Shown here piece after piece: positions 13,895 to 45,492 of a stretch of 64,000 bases of DNA. Within the stretch, counting starts at the first letter, position 1; each line of letters begins with the position of its first letter. The notes under the pieces were generated by a model, which worked only from the letters and a program-made list of their open reading frames with translations, was not told where the DNA came from and did not search any database. Source of the stretch: Halobellus sp. MBLA0158 (lineage in GTDB: Archaea > Halobacteriota > Halobacteria > Halobacteriales > Haloferacaceae); assembly GCF_041477585.1 (NCBI RefSeq), contig NZ_JBGNYA010000001.1, positions 2,542,001 through 2,606,000 on the forward strand. Reading direction: 5' to 3'. Both the position numbers and the translations under genes were made by a program.

Positions 13895-14001
13895 ACACGG
13901 GGGTTCCACGCCGGGGGAGTAAACAGTTACCGCGGTGCGGCGCTCCGCCGGCCGGGCGGTCCGGTCCCCGGCACGACGACGCCGGCGCGCCGACCGCCCT
14001 C

Positions 14002-14083
14002 ATAGTGGTTACTCTCGTCTTTTCCCGCCGAACGCCGTCACCGGGGGTGGCGTTCGGCGGTAAACAGTGAGAGTAATCACTAT
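14002..14083. repeat. 82-bp palindromic dispersed element, copy 1
   Basis: Ends are ATAGTGGTTACTCTC and GAGAGTAATCACTAT; the centre has CCGCCGAACGCC and GGCGTTCGGCGG arms, so almost the whole element can fold on itself. Copies of identical length lie at 24104-24185 and 45312-45393. Here the element starts at the last base of the TGA stop of the minus-strand metallo-beta-lactamase gene. A hairpin of this strength directly after a stop codon could end transcription or protect the message. The alternative is a non-autonomous mobile element of the MITE or REP type. Confidence 0.9.
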
Positions 14084-14826
14084 CAGACCTCGATCCGGAG
14101 GCCGTCGCTCGCGAACCGGACGTCGCCGTCGTAGCGGGCGGTTACGGAATCGAGCATCTCCTCGTGCCGACCCCTGGTGTGCGGGTACAGGTGCGTCAGG
14201 TAGACCCGGCCGATGTCGTGCCCCGCGAGGGCCTCGCCCAGCAGCGACGGCGTCGGGTGGTTCGAGACGTCGACGTCGTCGGGGAACGAGCAGTCGTGCG
14301 CCAGGACGGCGGCGCCGTCGGCGAAGCGCGCGGTGCTCGCGGCGGCCTCGCCGTCGCCCGAGAAGACGACGTCGCCGTTCCCGTCGCCGGCGAAGCGGTA
14401 CGCGAGGCAGTCCATCGAGTGCCGCATCTCGGTCGCGGCGACGTCGAAGCCGGCGACGGAGAACTCCGTCGGGCCGATCTCGCGGACGCTCAGGTCGACG
14501 CGGTCGTCGAGGTAGTCGTGGACGTCGAGCAGGCCGTCGAGCAACGACTTCGTGCCCGCGGGCCCGACGACTTCGAGGTGTTCCTCGCCGGCCAGCCAGC
14601 GCGCCTTCAGGAGCGGGAGGAGGTCCGCGACGTGGTCCAGGTGGTGGTGAGTCAGAAGCACCGTCGAGACGCCCTCGTAGCCGATGTCGGTGCCGGAGAG
14701 CCGCTGGAGGACGCCGCTCCCGCAGTCGACGAGGAGCGCGCGGTCGTCGGACTCCAAGAGCAGTCCCGTCTGCGCGCGGTCGGGAACGGCCATCGCGCTC
14801 CCGGTCCCGAGGAAGGTCAGTCGCAT
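14083..14826 (-). CDS. Metallo-beta-lactamase-fold hydrolase (RNase Z / phosphodiesterase-like)
   Basis: 247 residues beginning MRLTFLGTGSAM, the typical opening of ElaC/RNase Z-like and phosphodiesterase members. The metal-binding motif HHHLDH spans His60, His62, Asp64 and His65. Later ligands are suggested by the His in EMRHSMDCLAYRF, the Asp in VFSGDGEAAA and the His in VYLTHLYPH. The exosite arm of true tRNase Z is not obvious, so a phosphodiesterase or other hydrolase role is equally possible. The stop codon is continuous with the palindromic element. Confidence 0.85.
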   Translation of the reverse strand: MRLTFLGTGSAMAVPDRAQTGLLLESDDRALLVDCGSGVLQRLSGTDIGYEGVSTVLLTHHHLDHVADLLPLLKARWLAGEEHLEVVGPAGTKSLLDGLLDVHDYLDDRVDLSVREIGPTEFSVAGFDVAATEMRHSMDCLAYRFAGDGNGDVVFSGDGEAAASTARFADGAAVLAHDCSFPDDVDVSNHPTPSLLGEALAGHDIGRVYLTHLYPHTRGRHEEMLDSVTARYDGDVRFASDGLRIEV

Positions 14827-15091: not shown

Positions 15092-17944
15092 ATGGCGACC
15101 ACCGGGCGCGACCTGCTCCGACGCCTCGCCGAGGAGGGACGCGGGCCCGAGAGCGAACGCGGCGACGCGGCCGAGTCCTCGGACGGAGTCGAACTGGACT
15201 TCGATCCCGACGCGGTCGAGATCGGCGACGGGGACGTCCTCGGCCGGCTGGAGCCCGCGGTGCGGGAGTGGTGGGTCGATCAGTTCGGCCCCTACGTCGC
15301 GCAGAACGGCGGCTTCTTCACGCCGCCGCAGCGCGAGGCGATCCCGCTCGTCGACGAGGGGACGAACGCCCTGGTCTGTGCGCCCACGGGGTCGGGCAAG
15401 ACGCTCGCGTCGTTCACCGCGATCTTGAACGACCTCTTCCGGCGGGGCCGCGAGCGCGAGGACGGCCTCGACAACTCCGTGTACTGCCTGTACATCTCGC
15501 CGCTGAAGTCGCTCGCGAACGACATTCACCGCAATCTCACCGTGCCGCTGGAGGGGGTCCGCGAGCGGATGGAAGCGAAGGGCGGCGACGTCGAGGTCAG
15601 ACACGCGATCCGCCACGGCGACACCGACTCCGCGGCGCGCCAGCGGATGCTGGAGGAGACGCCGCACATCCTCAACACGACGCCGGAGACGCTCGCGATC
15701 CTGCTCAACGCGCCCAAGTTCAGGGAGAAACTCAGGACTGTCGAGTACGTGATCGTCGACGAGATCCACAGCCTCGCGGAGAACAAGCGCGGGACGCACC
15801 TGTCGGTCTCCCTGGAACGGCTGGAGGACCTCGCGGACGCGTCGCCGACGCGGATCGGCTGTTCGGCGACGGTCGAGCCGCTCTCGACGATGGCGGAGTA
15901 CCTCGTCGGGCGCGACGACCGGGGCGTCGTGCGGGACCACGAGATCGTCGACACGCGCTTCGTCCGCGACTTCGACCTCCGCCTGGAGTGTCCGACCGAC
16001 GACCTGATCCACACGCCGCGCGCGGAGATCCAGTCGGGGTTCTACGACCGGCTGCACGAGCTCATTTGTGATCACGAGAACACCCTCGTGTTCACGAACA
16101 CGCGCTCGGGCGCCGAGCGGGTGCTGGAGAACCTCCGCGAGCGCTTCGACGCCTACGACGACGCGAACTCCGGCTGCCACCACGGGAGCCTCTCGAAGGA
16201 GAAGCGCCAGGCGGTCGAGGAGGGGCTGAAGTCCGGCTCGCTCGACGTCGTGACGACCTCGACGAGCCTGGAGTTGGGAATCGATATGCCGCACCTCGAT
16301 CTCGTGGTCCAGGTCGGCTCGCCCAAGTCGGTCGCGGCGCTCCTCCAGCGCGTCGGCCGCGCGGGCCACAGCCTCGGCCAGACCGTCGAGGGGCGCGTGC
16401 TGGCGCTCGACCGCGACGAGCTCGTCGAGTGCGCGGTGATGCTGCGGAAGGCGGAATCTGGCTTCGTCGACCGCGTGTTCGTCCCCGAGAAGCCCCACGA
16501 CGTCGCCGCCCAGCACGTCTACGGGATGGCGATCAACGCCGTCCGGCGCGAGGCCGACGTCCTCGCGACGCTTCGGCGGGCGTATCCGTACCGGAACTAC
16601 ACGGACGACGACTGGGAGCGGCTCTGTCGGTACCTCACCGCCGACTATCAGGGACTTGAGGACAAGAACGTCTACGCGAAGATCTGGCGCGACACCAACG
16701 ACCCGCCCGCGGGCGAGCACCACTACGAGGAGTTCGACGTCGGCGAGCCGCTCGTCGGCAAGCGCGGCCGGATGGCCCGCGTCATCTACATGACGAACAT
16801 CGGGACGATCCCGGATTCGTTCACCTGCGAGGTGCGGCTCAGGGAGAGCGACGAGTGGGTCGGCACCCTCGACGAGGACTACCTCGACACCCTAGAGAAG
16901 GGCGACGTCTTCGTCCTCGGCGGCGACCGCTTCGCCTACCGCTACCGACGCGGGTCGAAGGTCTACGTCGACCGGACGACCGCACAGCCGACGGTGCCGT
17001 CGTGGTTCTCCGAGCGCCTGCCCCTCTCGTACGACCTCGGACGCGAGATCGCCGCGTTCCAGGGCGCCCTCCTGGAACGGCTCCGCGCCGGTGGCTCCCC
17101 CGCGGTCCGCGAGTGGCTCCGCGAGTTCCCGATCGACGAGAACGCCGTCCGCGCGATCGCCCGCCTGTTCGACGAACAGCGCCGCTACGCCGGCGAGGAG
17201 AGCGTCGCCACCGACGGGCGGCTCGTCGTCGAGGAGGAACTCGACCGGCAGGACTACCGCCGGCACTTCTACGTCCACTCGACGTACGGCCGGCGGTTCA
17301 ACGACGGCCTCTCCCGTCTCGTGGCCGCGAGGTGCGCCAACAGGGCGAACGCGAACGTCCAGATCGCCGTCGCCGACAACGGCTTTTCGCTGTCGATGCC
17401 GCTCAACAGGAAGGTTGACGTCGAGGCCGTCATCCGCGACCTCGATCCCGACGCCGTCCGGGCGGAGCTGCGTGACGCCATCGACGGTACCGACCTCCTG
17501 AAGCGGTACTTCCGCATCGACGCGACGCGCTCGCTGATGATTCTCAAGCGCTACAAGGGCTACGAGAAGTCCGCGGCCGAACAGCAGGTCTCCGCGGAGA
17601 TGCTGCTGTCGTTCGCCGACGACTTGGAGGATTTCGCGGTGATGGAAGAGACCTACCGCGAGATCATCGAGGACAAGCTCAACGTCGCCGCGATCGAGGA
17701 GGTCCTCCGCGACGTCCGGGCAGGGAACATCGAGGTGTCGTCGATCAGCGTCGACTCGCCCACGCCGCGGGCGTTCGGGCTGGCGACGCTGCTCGCGAGC
17801 GACGTCGTCCTCGCCGAAGACGAGAGCGCGGTCCTCCAGGAGTTCCACGCGCGTGTGCAGGCCGAAATCGGCGAGGAATCGGAGGGAGACGAAGCCGCCA
17901 CACCCGCGGACGCCCCGGCCTCATCGTCGCGCCCAGTCGAGTAG
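15092..17944 (+). CDS. lhr: Lhr-family superfamily-2 ATP-dependent helicase
   Basis: 950 residues. Motif I is APTGSGKT (residues 97-104), motif II DEIH (near residue 225), motif III SATVEP, and motif VI sits in LQRVGRAGHSLGQ. A long C-terminal part follows with the winged-helix and Lhr-specific domains. Lhr proteins translocate on single-stranded DNA and act in repair, including on stalled replication forks and RNA-DNA hybrids. The start follows a TATA-like CACTTACCC about 27 bases upstream, so leaderless. The frame is open for over 130 codons upstream but that stretch is antisense to another gene and not protein-like. The 3' end overlaps the convergent Dna2-type gene by 24 bases. Confidence 0.94.
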   Translation: MATTGRDLLRRLAEEGRGPESERGDAAESSDGVELDFDPDAVEIGDGDVLGRLEPAVREWWVDQFGPYVAQNGGFFTPPQREAIPLVDEGTNALVCAPTGSGKTLASFTAILNDLFRRGREREDGLDNSVYCLYISPLKSLANDIHRNLTVPLEGVRERMEAKGGDVEVRHAIRHGDTDSAARQRMLEETPHILNTTPETLAILLNAPKFREKLRTVEYVIVDEIHSLAENKRGTHLSVSLERLEDLADASPTRIGCSATVEPLSTMAEYLVGRDDRGVVRDHEIVDTRFVRDFDLRLECPTDDLIHTPRAEIQSGFYDRLHELICDHENTLVFTNTRSGAERVLENLRERFDAYDDANSGCHHGSLSKEKRQAVEEGLKSGSLDVVTTSTSLELGIDMPHLDLVVQVGSPKSVAALLQRVGRAGHSLGQTVEGRVLALDRDELVECAVMLRKAESGFVDRVFVPEKPHDVAAQHVYGMAINAVRREADVLATLRRAYPYRNYTDDDWERLCRYLTADYQGLEDKNVYAKIWRDTNDPPAGEHHYEEFDVGEPLVGKRGRMARVIYMTNIGTIPDSFTCEVRLRESDEWVGTLDEDYLDTLEKGDVFVLGGDRFAYRYRRGSKVYVDRTTAQPTVPSWFSERLPLSYDLGREIAAFQGALLERLRAGGSPAVREWLREFPIDENAVRAIARLFDEQRRYAGEESVATDGRLVVEEELDRQDYRRHFYVHSTYGRRFNDGLSRLVAARCANRANANVQIAVADNGFSLSMPLNRKVDVEAVIRDLDPDAVRAELRDAIDGTDLLKRYFRIDATRSLMILKRYKGYEKSAAEQQVSAEMLLSFADDLEDFAVMEETYREIIEDKLNVAAIEEVLRDVRAGNIEVSSISVDSPTPRAFGLATLLASDVVLAEDESAVLQEFHARVQAEIGEESEGDEAATPADAPASSSRPVE

Positions 17945-23594: not shown

Positions 23595-24104
23595 ATGGCA
23601 CGAACGTTCCGTGCGGCGGCGACGGTGACGGTGGAACGGGACATCGAGGACGTCTTCGCCTACCTCGCGGCGGTCACGACGATGGACGACTGGGTGAAGG
23701 GAGTCTCGGAGACCCGACACACGGGCGGGACGCCGGGCGAAGTCGGGGCGACCTACGCGTACCGGTACCGGTCGGCCGGGACGACCCGATCGATGGAGAT
23801 GACAGTCGAAGCGGTCGAGCGGCCCACCAGGCTCGTGATCGGCGTCCCCGACGGCTCGCTGGCGTTCACGAGCGAGATCACGCTCGAGGCGGTCGACGGG
23901 GGCACTCGCGTCACCAACGCCATCGACGCGACGGTCACGGGCCGCGGGCTCGCGCTGCTTACCGCCGTCGCGCCGCCGCTGGTCCGCTGGCTCGCGACGC
24001 GCGAGATGACGGGCGAACTCGAACAGCTGAAGTCGAACCTGGAGGACGAGGAGATCGCCGTCGCCGACGACCGCCGGCGGCGGGAGTCGACGGCCGCGGC
24101 CTGA
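23595..24104 (+). CDS. SRPBCC-fold ligand-binding or cyclase-like protein
   Basis: 169 residues with the START/Bet v1-like pattern: an N-terminal strand FRAAATVTVERDIEDVFAYLA, DDWVKGV, then alternating strands and a C-terminal helix that lines a hydrophobic cavity. Such proteins bind lipids or polyketide-like ligands; none can be named here. A TATA-like GTATTTAATAC lies about 25 bases upstream, fitting leaderless transcription. The last base of the stop codon is the first base of a palindromic element. Confidence 0.8.
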   Translation: MARTFRAAATVTVERDIEDVFAYLAAVTTMDDWVKGVSETRHTGGTPGEVGATYAYRYRSAGTTRSMEMTVEAVERPTRLVIGVPDGSLAFTSEITLEAVDGGTRVTNAIDATVTGRGLALLTAVAPPLVRWLATREMTGELEQLKSNLEDEEIAVADDRRRRESTAAA

Positions 24105-24185
24105 TAGTGATTACTCTCACTTGTTGCCGCCGAACGCCACCCTCGGTGACAGCGTTCGGCGGGAAGAGACGAGAGTAATCACGAT
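24104..24185. repeat. 82-bp palindromic dispersed element, copy 2
   Basis: Same length and end sequences as the copies at 14002 and 45312, but more diverged in the centre. Its reverse complement aligns best with copy 3. It starts on the A of the SRPBCC gene's TGA and ends seven bases before the stop of the convergent rhodanese/metallo-beta-lactamase gene, so it fills the whole convergent gap. That is an ideal position for a bidirectional terminator. Confidence 0.88.
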
Positions 24186-24191
24186 GAGTAT

Positions 24192-25346
24192 TCAAACGGC
24201 GCAGTTGTTCGGTCCCAGTTCCAGTTCCTCGCCCTCGTCGGGCTCCAGCTCGAAGACGCCGCGGTTGGCGTCGATGATCGTCCGGTAGTTCGCCGGTTGG
24301 TCGCTCCCAGCGTCGGCGACCCGCTCGACGAACGCCTCGCGGTCGAGCGAGAACAGCTCCAGGTCCGCGCGGAGATCTCCGAGCCGGCCGGCGACGACGT
24401 CGCCCGGACGTCCGACGGCGAACGTCCCGTCGGCACCGACCGAGACGTGGCCGGGGAGCACCACCACGTCGTCGGCGAGGTCGCCGTAGCGCTCGTGAAT
24501 CGTCTCGTAGAGCATCTCCGCGCCGGTCTCGGCGCCCTCCTCGCCGAACTCCAGTTCGGTCCGACCGACCGACTCGACGAAGAGCGTATCCCCCGAGAGG
24601 AGGTACTCGCCGTCGACGAGGAGGCTCACGTGCTCGGTCGTGTGGCCGGGCGCCGCGCGGACCGCGACGTCGACGCTTCCGACCGAGAGCGTCTCGCCGT
24701 CGGAGATCGGATGGAAGTCGTACTTCAGATCGCGGGCGGTCGCGTCGGCGCTCAGGTAGTACGGGACCGAGAGCCGCTCGGCCAGGTCGCGGCCGCCCGA
24801 GAGGTGGTCCGCGTGGACGTGGGTGTCGAGGACGCCCGTAACCACGAGGCCGGCGTCGGCCGCGACGAGTTCGTGCTCGTGGTGCTGGCGCGTTGGGTCG
24901 ACGACGAGCGCCTCCCGGGCCGCGGCGTCGCCGACGACGTAGCCAAGACAGCCCTTCGCCCGGCGCTGGATCTGCGCGAGGAACAGGTCCCCGTCGGTCT
25001 CAACCTCGACGACGTCGTAGAGCTTGCTCCAGTCCACCATTCCGCCCTTGACGACGCTGACGTTCTCGTAGCCCCGCCTCGACAGCTCGAAGCCGAAGGC
25101 GGTCGACGCGAGGCCCCGGGCGCAGACGACCGCCACCGGCTGGCCGTCGACGACGGCCGCGACGTCGTCCCAGGTGAAGCCCGCGCCGAGGCCGTCAACG
25201 GGATGGTACGGGACGTTCACCGCGCCGGAGACGTGCCACGCCTCGAAGCTGTCGGGCGGCCGCGTGTCGACGACGGTGAGGGGCTCGTCGGCGTCGATCG
25301 CCCTCGCGAGGTCGTCGACGGTGCGCTGAGCGAGGAGGTCCGGCAT
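24192..25346 (-). CDS. Rhodanese plus metallo-beta-lactamase fusion (persulfide dioxygenase-like)
   Basis: 384 residues. Residues 1-110 form a rhodanese domain with Cys75 in the active-site loop (VCARGLAS). Residues 120-330 form a metallo-beta-lactamase domain with HVHADH (His176, His178, Asp180, His181) and further ligands in the His of APGHTTEH, the Asp of LLSGDTLF and the His of VVLPGHVS. This resembles ETHE1-type persulfide dioxygenases fused to a sulfurtransferase, but in bacterial fusions the order is usually the reverse. A role in sulfane-sulfur oxidation is inferred. Confidence 0.85.
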   Translation of the reverse strand: MPDLLAQRTVDDLARAIDADEPLTVVDTRPPDSFEAWHVSGAVNVPYHPVDGLGAGFTWDDVAAVVDGQPVAVVCARGLASTAFGFELSRRGYENVSVVKGGMVDWSKLYDVVEVETDGDLFLAQIQRRAKGCLGYVVGDAAAREALVVDPTRQHHEHELVAADAGLVVTGVLDTHVHADHLSGGRDLAERLSVPYYLSADATARDLKYDFHPISDGETLSVGSVDVAVRAAPGHTTEHVSLLVDGEYLLSGDTLFVESVGRTELEFGEEGAETGAEMLYETIHERYGDLADDVVVLPGHVSVGADGTFAVGRPGDVVAGRLGDLRADLELFSLDREAFVERVADAGSDQPANYRTIIDANRGVFELEPDEGEELELGPNNCAV

Positions 25347-28521: not shown

Positions 28522-28713
28522 TTACTGGTAGGGGGCGACGACGTCGACGAGGTCCTTGTGCGAGACCATCATCCGCCGGCAGCAGTGGCGGTCGATCCCG
28601 AGATCGTCGAGCACCTCGGCCGGGTCTTCGTCTCCCTCGCGGGCGCGTTCCTTGAACTCGTCCCAGTGTTCGCCGATGACGTTACCGCACGTGAAACACC
28701 GGACGGGTATCAT
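28522..28713 (-). CDS. rpoN: DNA-directed RNA polymerase subunit N (RPB10 homologue)
   Basis: 63 residues from [14 protein letters not shown] (a second ATG directly upstream at 28716 is possible). The zinc site CFTCG plus CCRRM is the RPB10 signature, with the conserved HCCRR near residue 44. It anchors subunits D and L to the polymerase core. The operon places it with rpoK. Confidence 0.96.
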
Positions 28714-28728
28714 CATAGGTAGATCACC

Positions 28729-29127
28729 TCAGCGGTAGGACTTCTGGTAGCGCGCTCGGGCGCCCGGTCCGCCCCACTTCTTGGGCTCGGACTGGCGCAC
28801 GTCGTTGACGAGCAGCGAGCGGTCGAAGTCCATATACGCGTCGCGGAGTTCGGCGTCGTTGAGATGCTGCACCAGCCCGCGGGCGATCGCCGTCCGCGCG
28901 GCGTCGGCCTGTCCGGCGAAGCCGCCGCCGGAGACGCTGACGTCGATGTCGACCTGCGAGCGGAGGTCCTCGCCGGCGATGCGGAACGGCTCCAGCATCT
29001 TCAGGCGGGCCATCTCCGGCTCGACCAGTTCGACCGGCTGGGAATCGATGCGGACGCGGCCCTCGCCGTCGCGCACGGTGGCGCGGGCGATGGCCGTCTT
29101 CTTCTTACCGGATGTGTTCGTTACCAT
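28729..29127 (-). CDS. rps9: 30S ribosomal protein uS9
   Basis: 132 residues. The [15 protein letters not shown] start, the [19 protein letters not shown] block and the basic C-terminal tail ending RARYQKSYR, which reaches the decoding site, are all present. It overlaps rpl13 by seven bases and so is translationally coupled to it. Confidence 0.97.
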
Positions 29128-29558
29128 GTGACTTTCGCCCCCAGGTTCTCGGAGATCTCTCCGAGCGAGAGGAACTTGATGTTCGAGAGTCGATCGAGCG
29201 TGGTGCCCTCGATGGCGTCGCCGTCCTCGTCGAACGGATTGCCGACGTAGACGCGGACGTTCGAGAGCGCCTCGCGGCCGCGGTCCTTGTCCGTCGGGAG
29301 CATCCCGCGGACCGAGCGCTTGAACATCCCGTCCGGGCGCGTCGGGTAGTGCGGCCCCCGGTCGGAGCCGACGTTCGCGCGCTTGCGGTAGGTGGACATC
29401 ACGTCCTCCTCGGAGCCGGTGATCACGGCGTCCTCGGCGTTGACGATCGCGACCGTCTCGCCGTCGAGGGCGCGCTGGGCGACCTCGCTGGCGACGCGGC
29501 CGACGATGCAGTTCCGCGCGTCGACGACGACGTCTGCGTCGAACTCTGCGAGGCTCAT
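29121..29558 (-). CDS. rpl13: 50S ribosomal protein uL13
   Basis: 145 residues. Conserved uL13 segments: [32 protein letters not shown], and the central [19 protein letters not shown]. Overlaps rpl18e by four bases upstream and rps9 by seven downstream. Confidence 0.97.
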
Positions 29559-44418: not shown

Positions 44419-45312
44419 ATGACTGAACTTCGCGCGCCTCCGGCGGACCGCACCGTCGAGGAACTGCTGTCGTTCGGCGTCGTGAACCTCGACAAGCCCG
44501 CCGGCCCGTCGGCCCACCAGGTGTCGGCGTGGGCGCGGGACGCCGCCGGCGTCGACCGCGCCGCCCACGCCGGGACGCTCGACCCGAAGGTGACCGGCTG
44601 TCTGCCGATCCTCCTGGGCGATGCGACCCGCCTCGCGCCGGTGTTCCTGGAGGGCGCGAAGGAGTACGTCGCCGTCCTGGAACTCCACGGACCCGCGCCC
44701 GGCGACCTGGAGGCCGTCGCCGCGGAGTTCGAAGGCGAGATCTACCAGAAGCCGCCGCGCAAGAGCGCCGTCGCGCGCCGCCTCCGGACGCGAGAGATCT
44801 ACGACCTCGACGTCCTGGAGGTCGAAGAGCGGCAGGCGCTCCTCCGGATCCGCTGTGAGAGCGGTACCTACATCCGGAAGCTCTGCCACGACCTGGGCCT
44901 CGCGGCGGGGACCGGCGCGCATATGGGCGACCTCAGGCGGACCGCGACCGACCCGTTCGACGACCGGGACCTCGTCTCGACCGCCGATCTGACCGACGCG
45001 CTCGCGTTCGCCGAGGAGGGCGACGAAGAGCCACTCAGAGCCGCCGTCGCGCCCGCGGAGCGGGCGCTGTCGCACCTCCCGCGGCTGACCGTCGCCGTCT
45101 CGGCGGCCGAACAGATCGCGGAGGGCGCACCGGTGTACGCGCCCGGCGTCGTCGACGCCGACTCGGATCTCGACGCGGTGGCGCAAAGCGACGAGGCGCC
45201 CCTCGTGGCCTGCTTCACCCCCGACGACGCCGCGGTTTGTCTGGGGCGGCTCGTCGGCGACCCGGACGCCGAGCGCGGCGAGGTCGTCGCGCTCGAACGC
45301 GTCCTGGTGTGA
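44419..45312 (+). CDS. cbf5: tRNA/rRNA pseudouridine synthase Cbf5 (TruB family)
   Basis: 297 residues. Catalytic Asp55 in HAGTLDPKVTG; KPAGPSAHQVSAW; GTYIRKLCHDLG; and a C-terminal PUA domain (about 210-290). In archaea Cbf5 is the catalytic subunit of H/ACA ribonucleoproteins and can also make Psi55 in tRNA. The gene ends on the A that begins palindromic element 3. It follows cmk by 21 bases. Confidence 0.94.
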   Translation: MTELRAPPADRTVEELLSFGVVNLDKPAGPSAHQVSAWARDAAGVDRAAHAGTLDPKVTGCLPILLGDATRLAPVFLEGAKEYVAVLELHGPAPGDLEAVAAEFEGEIYQKPPRKSAVARRLRTREIYDLDVLEVEERQALLRIRCESGTYIRKLCHDLGLAAGTGAHMGDLRRTATDPFDDRDLVSTADLTDALAFAEEGDEEPLRAAVAPAERALSHLPRLTVAVSAAEQIAEGAPVYAPGVVDADSDLDAVAQSDEAPLVACFTPDDAAVCLGRLVGDPDAERGEVVALERVLV

Positions 45313-45393
45313 TAGTGATTACTCTCGTCTCTTCCCGCCGAACGCCGTCACCGGTGACGGCGTTCGGCGGTAAACAGTGAGAGTAATCACTAT
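45312..45393. repeat. 82-bp palindromic dispersed element, copy 3
   Basis: The most perfect copy: ATAGTGATTACTCTC at one end and its exact complement GAGAGTAATCACTAT at the other, with inner arms CCGCCGAACGCCGTCACC/GGTGACGGCGTTCGGCGG meeting at the centre. Only a short interior (GTCTCTTC against GTAAACAGT) is not complementary. It lies directly after the cbf5 stop and about 100 bases before tRNA-Pro. Confidence 0.92.
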
Positions 45394-45492
45394 GAGTCTC
45401 GGAACCGGGCGCTCGACCGTGCGACCGACTGACGGCCGCGCGGTGAAACGAAGGACTTAACGGTACCAGCGGCATCCCATCGAATGCACTCT

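Follow-up and report, generated by a model that had tools for sequence, protein, structure and literature searches.

What places a palindromic element, to the base, on the stop codon of the preceding gene, and does so three times in one stretch of DNA? The stretch analyzed here (the window) is 64,000 nucleotides of Halobellus sp. MBLA0158, and its first-pass annotation listed 82-bp palindromic copies at 14002-14083, 24104-24185, and 45312-45393, in each of which base one is the A of the upstream gene's TGA. Two explanations were offered there: selection for a 3'-end function or very specific insertion into TGAG targets. Our analysis bears out the three positions, the shared A in all three cases, and the inversion of copy 3 relative to copies 1 and 2, and it favors an insertion-based answer, in which survival after insertion also plays a part.

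Anatomy of the element and its three window copies

The mobile unit is an 80-bp near-palindrome that runs from TAG to CTA and lies between two direct TGA repeats; the earlier length of 82 bp arose because one base of each repeat had been counted in. The features are as follows.

14003..14082, minus strand: copy 1 of the 80-bp element (locus L007), from sequence, fold, and genome-wide search
14083..14085, minus strand: TGA repeat of copy 1, the stop codon of the upstream gene
14000..14002, minus strand: second TGA repeat of copy 1, target duplication
14083..14826, minus strand: gene upstream of copy 1, metallo-beta-lactamase superfamily (start uncertain; longest open reading frame to 15102)
24105..24184, plus strand: copy 2 of the 80-bp element (locus L023)
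24102..24104, plus strand: TGA repeat of copy 2, the stop codon of the upstream gene
24185..24187, plus strand: second TGA repeat of copy 2
23595..24104, plus strand: gene upstream of copy 2, Polyketide_cyc2 family
24192..25346, minus strand: convergent gene after copy 2, rhodanese and metallo-beta-lactamase domains
45313..45392, plus strand: copy 3 of the 80-bp element (locus L001), internal orientation opposite to that of copies 1 and 2
45310..45312, plus strand: TGA repeat of copy 3, the stop codon of the upstream gene
45393..45395, plus strand: second TGA repeat of copy 3
44419..45312, plus strand: gene upstream of copy 3, TruB/PUA pseudouridine synthase

The element is short and noncoding, with inverted, covarying terminal arms of 14 bp. 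A search of the window for its palindrome arms, ATAGTGATTACTCTC, gave six occurrences at up to 3 mismatches; shuffled sequence would be expected to give 0.2. Each window copy folds, as the annotation had proposed, into a single long hairpin (-50 to -59 kcal/mol as RNA, z scores of -8 to -11). The element end together with the TGA always reads TATGA, and intact copies thus offer an ATG (14000-14003 in the window). Because of this ATG, the long open reading frame that starts at 14003 is probably an artifact.

Copies across the genome

The element occupies at least 40 places in the 3.29-Mb genome, a lower bound given that 40 of 69 candidates were scored. The coincidence with stop codons extends well beyond the window: 36 of the 40 copies overlap the in-frame stop of the upstream gene to the base, 34 of them by script and two more (L014 and L062) by inspection of the reading frames, with L030 the least certain of the 36. 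These are hand-checked figures; automated anchoring, which misplaced decayed copies, gave 33 of 39. Among the copies not at a stop, L003 and L013 are in frame but downstream of an earlier stop, and L028 adjoins a stop on the opposite strand. L059 (at about 1497) is decayed; it has lost the stop codon at its border, and the gene now reads into the element. Three further loci (L067, L068, and L069) are solo arms that look like deletion products, and the TGA left at the junction in L067 and L068 is consistent with deletion between the short TGA repeats of the hairpin. Relative to the outer arms, the hairpin loop points one way in some copies of this genome and the other way in others, which gives the impression that it can invert.

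Other genomes and element families vary in this respect. Copies lie at stops in 21 of 25 cases in genome G014, 23 of 32 in the set G007/8/10, 31 of 59 in G137, and 7 of 15 in G086. In family f4, four of five copies in G297 do so; in family f6, both copies in G064 and all six distinct sites do so (seven listed loci, L047 and L116 being one place, and L121 coinciding with L181, which belongs to the G064 count). In family f7, the coincidence is near chance, at 4 of 19 copies in three genomes (G080, 1 of 5; G298, 2 of 10; G186, 1 of 4). In the independent RefSeq annotation of the Halobellus limi plasmid, the stop of a coding sequence touches the element at five of the eight places read, and the end of a sixth coding sequence is some 5 bp distant. 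The first-pass annotation had named numerous copies off stops as the pattern that would speak against it; Halobellus does not show this pattern, and other genera show it in part, with 28 of the 59 copies in G137 off stops.

Distribution and recent spread

A covariance model of the element matches 62 of 292 Halobacteria genomes, in 28 of 77 genera. The model was built from 24 elements, a hand-picked subset of 51, with one row (L020) in the opposite internal orientation, and the survey applied strict filters and scored up to 16 candidates per genome, so that copy numbers from it are to be read as "at least". Some genomes have amplified the element recently. G137 carries about 80 near-identical copies (81 forward and 84 reverse arm matches) and G086 about 33; 12 of the 52 copies scored in G137 and 9 of the 15 scored in G086 equal the consensus, and 21 of the 24 scored in G014 are within 3 bases of it.

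The arms vary between lineages yet stay complementary, with double changes in 16 of 29 pairs. In the 24-row alignment, 50 cells covary, against 12.4 in shuffles, and both helices contribute. A single protein that binds both ends would account for this covariation as well as a function of the hairpin would.

Searches of other sequence collections returned little. Phage records held no match, and of 38 matches in viral contigs, one had a loosely matching partner, by the look of it a chance match in AT-rich DNA. Of 23 stretches examined, 15 were flagged; one of these (L322) is a loose, probably chance match, and the other 14 are from Halobellus inordinatus. Rfam gave three matches, all below the gathering score.

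Target duplication, orientation, and empty sites

TGA flanks the element on both sides in 54 of 59 copies in G137, in 23 of 25 in G014, and in 24 of 39 of the older copies in MBLA0158 itself. The element's orientation relative to the TGA at stops is roughly random: the two internal orientations are represented 15:18 in MBLA0158, 5:16 in G014, 12:11 in G007/8/10, 14:14 in G137, and 3:4 in G086. Mixed orientations imply that the TGA belongs to the target and not to the element.

Comparison with related genomes points the same way. At 10 sites of MBLA0158, the element is present at none of 40 relative loci, and by eye, the gene stops at the same codon in 32 of the 40; the other eight comprise every one of the six relatives of L017, plus a single relative of L007 and a single relative of L011. 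The idea that the insertion created the stop codon can thus be set aside, as the element-free orthologues mostly stop at the same codon. At the L015 site, five relatives (L080, L108, and L110 to L112) read TGAGCG where MBLA0158 has TGA, the element, and TGAGCG. These empty sites also dispose of a TA duplication of the kind made by Tc1/IS630-type elements, as they read TGAGCG and not TGATATGAG.

An oxidoreductase gene gives the clearest pair. In H. limi, it ends GCC TGA GC, uninterrupted and followed by homologous downstream DNA, while G012 carries the element inside that same TGA, with downstream DNA 85 percent identical to that of H. limi. G008 and G014 are occupied as well (G014 with a weaker downstream match), and G002, G003, and G006 are empty. 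The empty-site check in sister species thus finds a single, uninterrupted TGA at the end of the same gene, and this, together with the random orientation, identifies the TGA as a 3-bp target duplication and the element as MITE-like.

Relatedly, the element can use the TGA that a previous insertion provides: in tandem copies, the second element occupies the TGA beside the first (L213 in G137). At L213, L230, and L252 of that genome, two different elements stand side by side with a common TGA, the second apparently from another subfamily. In G086, a copy (L148, about 840) interrupts an open reading frame that, by eye, begins like VapC (PIN domain) and directly follows a VapB-like frame. Insertion inside genes therefore does occur.

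The account that we consider probable is that of a nonautonomous, MITE-like DNA element of about 80 bp, moved in trans by a transposase that makes a staggered cut and a 3-bp duplication, with the surviving copies mostly on stops. Multicopy spread, direct TGA repeats, empty sites, and insertion in both orientations are all observed. Judging by the anatomy, the enzyme acting in trans would be of the cut-and-paste DDE type, and its target would be a near-symmetric GNC-T(G/C)A-GNC in GC-rich DNA. Stop codons would be good targets because haloarchaeal genes often end in GNC-TGA. Insertion at a stop would duplicate the TGA and leave the protein unchanged, while copies within a gene, or within roughly 45 bp ahead of a start, would be lost, and the remainder would sit on stop codons. 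The annotation's suggestion of very specific insertion into TGAG targets is in this respect supported by the TGA repeats, a C-TGA-G core, the empty sites, and insertion in either orientation.

Target preference and the excess at stops

The target preference can be read from the insertions that are not at stops. Among 56 of these, C precedes the TGA in 41 (position -1) and G follows it in 45 (position +1), with G at -3 in 27 and C at +3 in 31. The preferred site is thus GNC-TGA-GNC, with a conserved C-TGA-G core and GC-rich flanks; the DNA 6 to 30 bp from the insertion is 65 percent GC, above the level at ordinary noncoding TGA sites. The stops of haloarchaeal, GC-rich genes resemble this target. 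Loss elsewhere also leaves a trace. In tandem gene pairs, all 50 of the 50 insertions at stops keep a distance of 45 bp or more to the next start, and the same holds for 132 of 229 ordinary tandem junctions (P = 4e-11); such a difference would be expected if neither core promoters nor tight operon junctions tolerate the element.

How far these two factors go was assessed against null models built on our own codon-bias gene calls. Against all promoter-free noncoding sites, 23 to 39 percent of copies would be expected at stops, and the counts observed were 36 of 39 in MBLA0158, 21 of 25 in G014, 23 of 31 in G007/8/10, and 31 of 53 in G137 (combined P = 5e-29). When sites were restricted to within 60 bp downstream of a stop and weighted by motif alone (56 non-stop insertions in the preference model), 44 to 65 percent were expected and 78 to 92 percent observed (P = 8e-4 to 2e-5 per genome set). 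Adding flank GC (42 non-stop insertions in the model) gave an expectation of 74 percent for MBLA0158 against 36 of 39 observed (P = 3e-3), 69 percent for G014 against 21 of 23 (P = 1e-2), and 61 percent for G007/8/10 against 23 of 27 (P = 6e-3), with no excess in G137 (31 of 40; P = 0.37); the four sets combined gave P = 7e-5. The binomial tests leave out copies called inside coding frames (one in MBLA0158, one in G007/8/10, and six in G137), and the non-stop copies near a 3' end (3, 2, 4, and 9) were read by hand.

The nearness of the element to gene ends is therefore strong and not explained by the target word alone. Target preference, combined with loss from coding and promoter DNA, accounts for most but not all of its exact coincidence with the stop. 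Since an excess remains under the strictest null, simple target choice and loss do not explain everything, and a further preference for gene 3' ends in Halobellus is likely.

One reading of this residue is that transposition is itself directed to stops, the enzyme or a host partner recognizing where genes end (perhaps by the termination of transcription or translation there, or by open DNA) so that new copies prefer sense-strand TGA stops. We regard this as a possible but minority explanation. It would account for the mostly young-looking copies of G014 being at stops as often as they are, for the excess over the motif-weighted 3' null, and for the complete coincidence in family f6. Copies at stops are also similar in age to the others, with none of five tests finding them measurably older (P = 0.09, 0.32, 1.0, 0.91, and 0.43), and slow retention is therefore unlikely as the cause. 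Yet adding flank GC to the motif raises the expectation to a level at which the excess in G137 disappears, family f7 is seldom at stops, and copies also use the TGA beside an older element or sit within a gene. The wider proposal, that haloarchaeal transposition finds sense-strand TGA stops beyond what sequence and survival provide, guided by a signal linked to the termination of transcription or translation, is slightly more doubtful still.

A role for the upstream gene

Alternatively, the hairpin might be kept at stops for the sake of the upstream gene, as a terminator, a protector of the mRNA 3' end, or a mark for the end of translation. The strong, conserved hairpin with covariation in both helices would suit such a role, as would the avoidance of tight operon junctions and, in the family found in MBLA0158, a stop followed by in-frame TAG and TGA. 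Yet a transposase that had to bind both ends would be expected to produce covariation too, and the additional in-frame stops are not kept in every family (they are missing from G298 copies), which rules out a backup-stop function. The pattern of an intrinsic terminator (a GC hairpin plus a T run) occurs at none of the three window copies, which have no T-rich tail; relatives have no element at the 10 sites compared; and at-stop copies are no older than others. We consider a service to the upstream gene unlikely. The selection for a 3'-end function proposed in the annotation accordingly finds no support in the missing T-rich tail, the ages of the copies, or the weak coincidence in family f7, and the sequences examined give no evidence of host use of the element.

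The mover and other mechanisms

Returning to the MITE-like element, we looked for its mover in several ways. G137 and G086 contain no transposase element whose outer 11 bases match, and MBLA0158 contains no paired ends at other spacings. Among 853 neighboring proteins, no transposase-like family was seen by eye to recur in the 14 largest clusters. The IS5-type element of the Halobellus plasmid NZ_CP134947 was rejected as a partner, its ends being unrelated. That plasmid (NZ_CP134947.1, locus L343) carries two nearly identical IS5-family elements, at 15318-16133 and 28697-29512.

Single-strand transposition of the IS200/IS605 or REP-like type, in which TGA would be the word that is cleaved and the element itself would bring along one TGA, is very improbable. 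It would explain the hairpin form and the constant short target word. However, IS605-type and PATE insertion is strand-specific, and the element occurs in both orientations with the TGA always on the sense strand of the gene, which is not expected if the TGA is part of the element and which excludes single-strand or RNA-based insertion. A Y1 transposase is present in five of the seven carriers searched, but there is none in MBLA0158 or H. limi (G010), both rich in copies. Finally, luck or an annotation artifact, conceivable when three copies were all that the first-pass annotation had seen, is a negligible prospect, refuted by the genome-wide count (36 of 40; P of about 1e-16 versus motif-weighted noncoding TGA sites) and by the coinciding RefSeq ends in the H. 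limi plasmid.

Comparison with known elements

The element resembles MITEs in being short and noncoding, with terminal inverted repeats, a target duplication, many dispersed copies, and recent spread. It differs in that searches of G137, G086, and MBLA0158 turned up no partner transposon sharing its ends, the duplication is nearly always TGA, and the copies are mostly on stops. ERIC, Correia, RUP, and BOX of bacteria are palindromic mobile repeats of about 100 bp near gene ends, and several of them duplicate TA; going by these general descriptions, the element is likewise a palindromic mobile repeat, with TGA as its duplication. REP sequences, associated with RAYT transposases, are extragenic palindromes of 20 to 40 nt with a GTAG foot and no target duplication. 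The element is likewise a palindrome, but it has 80 bp and a TGA duplication, and two of its carriers are without any Y1 transposase.

Closer to home, the SMR-A and SMR-B elements of Haloquadratum walsbyi are about 80 to 110 bp long, with inverted terminal repeats, without a transposase, and with a mobilization called enigmatic; HqIRS41 is 80 bp (PMC3119063). As described in the relevant passages of that source, SMRs make no target duplication and enter other mobile elements. The present element is also haloarchaeal, similar in size, with inverted ends and no transposase; set against those passages, it differs in duplicating TGA, in following ordinary genes at the three window copies, and in having most of its MBLA0158 copies at gene stops. 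The same passages describe PATEs and IS605-type elements as palindromes with short fixed target words and without terminal inverted repeats (PMC3119063), whereas the ends of our element are inverted repeats and it inserts either way round. The open-access literature searched held no description of the element or of stop-codon targeting. We know of no described family with such a target.

Implications

In summary, the element is of an ordinary kind, a MITE-like repeat, and has a habit that is uncommon but well supported. If the residual preference for stops proves to be real at the step of insertion, it would represent a targeting principle without precedent known to us. Occupied and empty stop codons in sister species also provide a clean natural test of whether gene-end hairpins affect archaeal termination or mRNA stability. 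For the Halobacteria, in which these tiny mobile hairpins are widespread, the element illustrates how a parasite can become almost harmless when its target word happens to be a stop codon.
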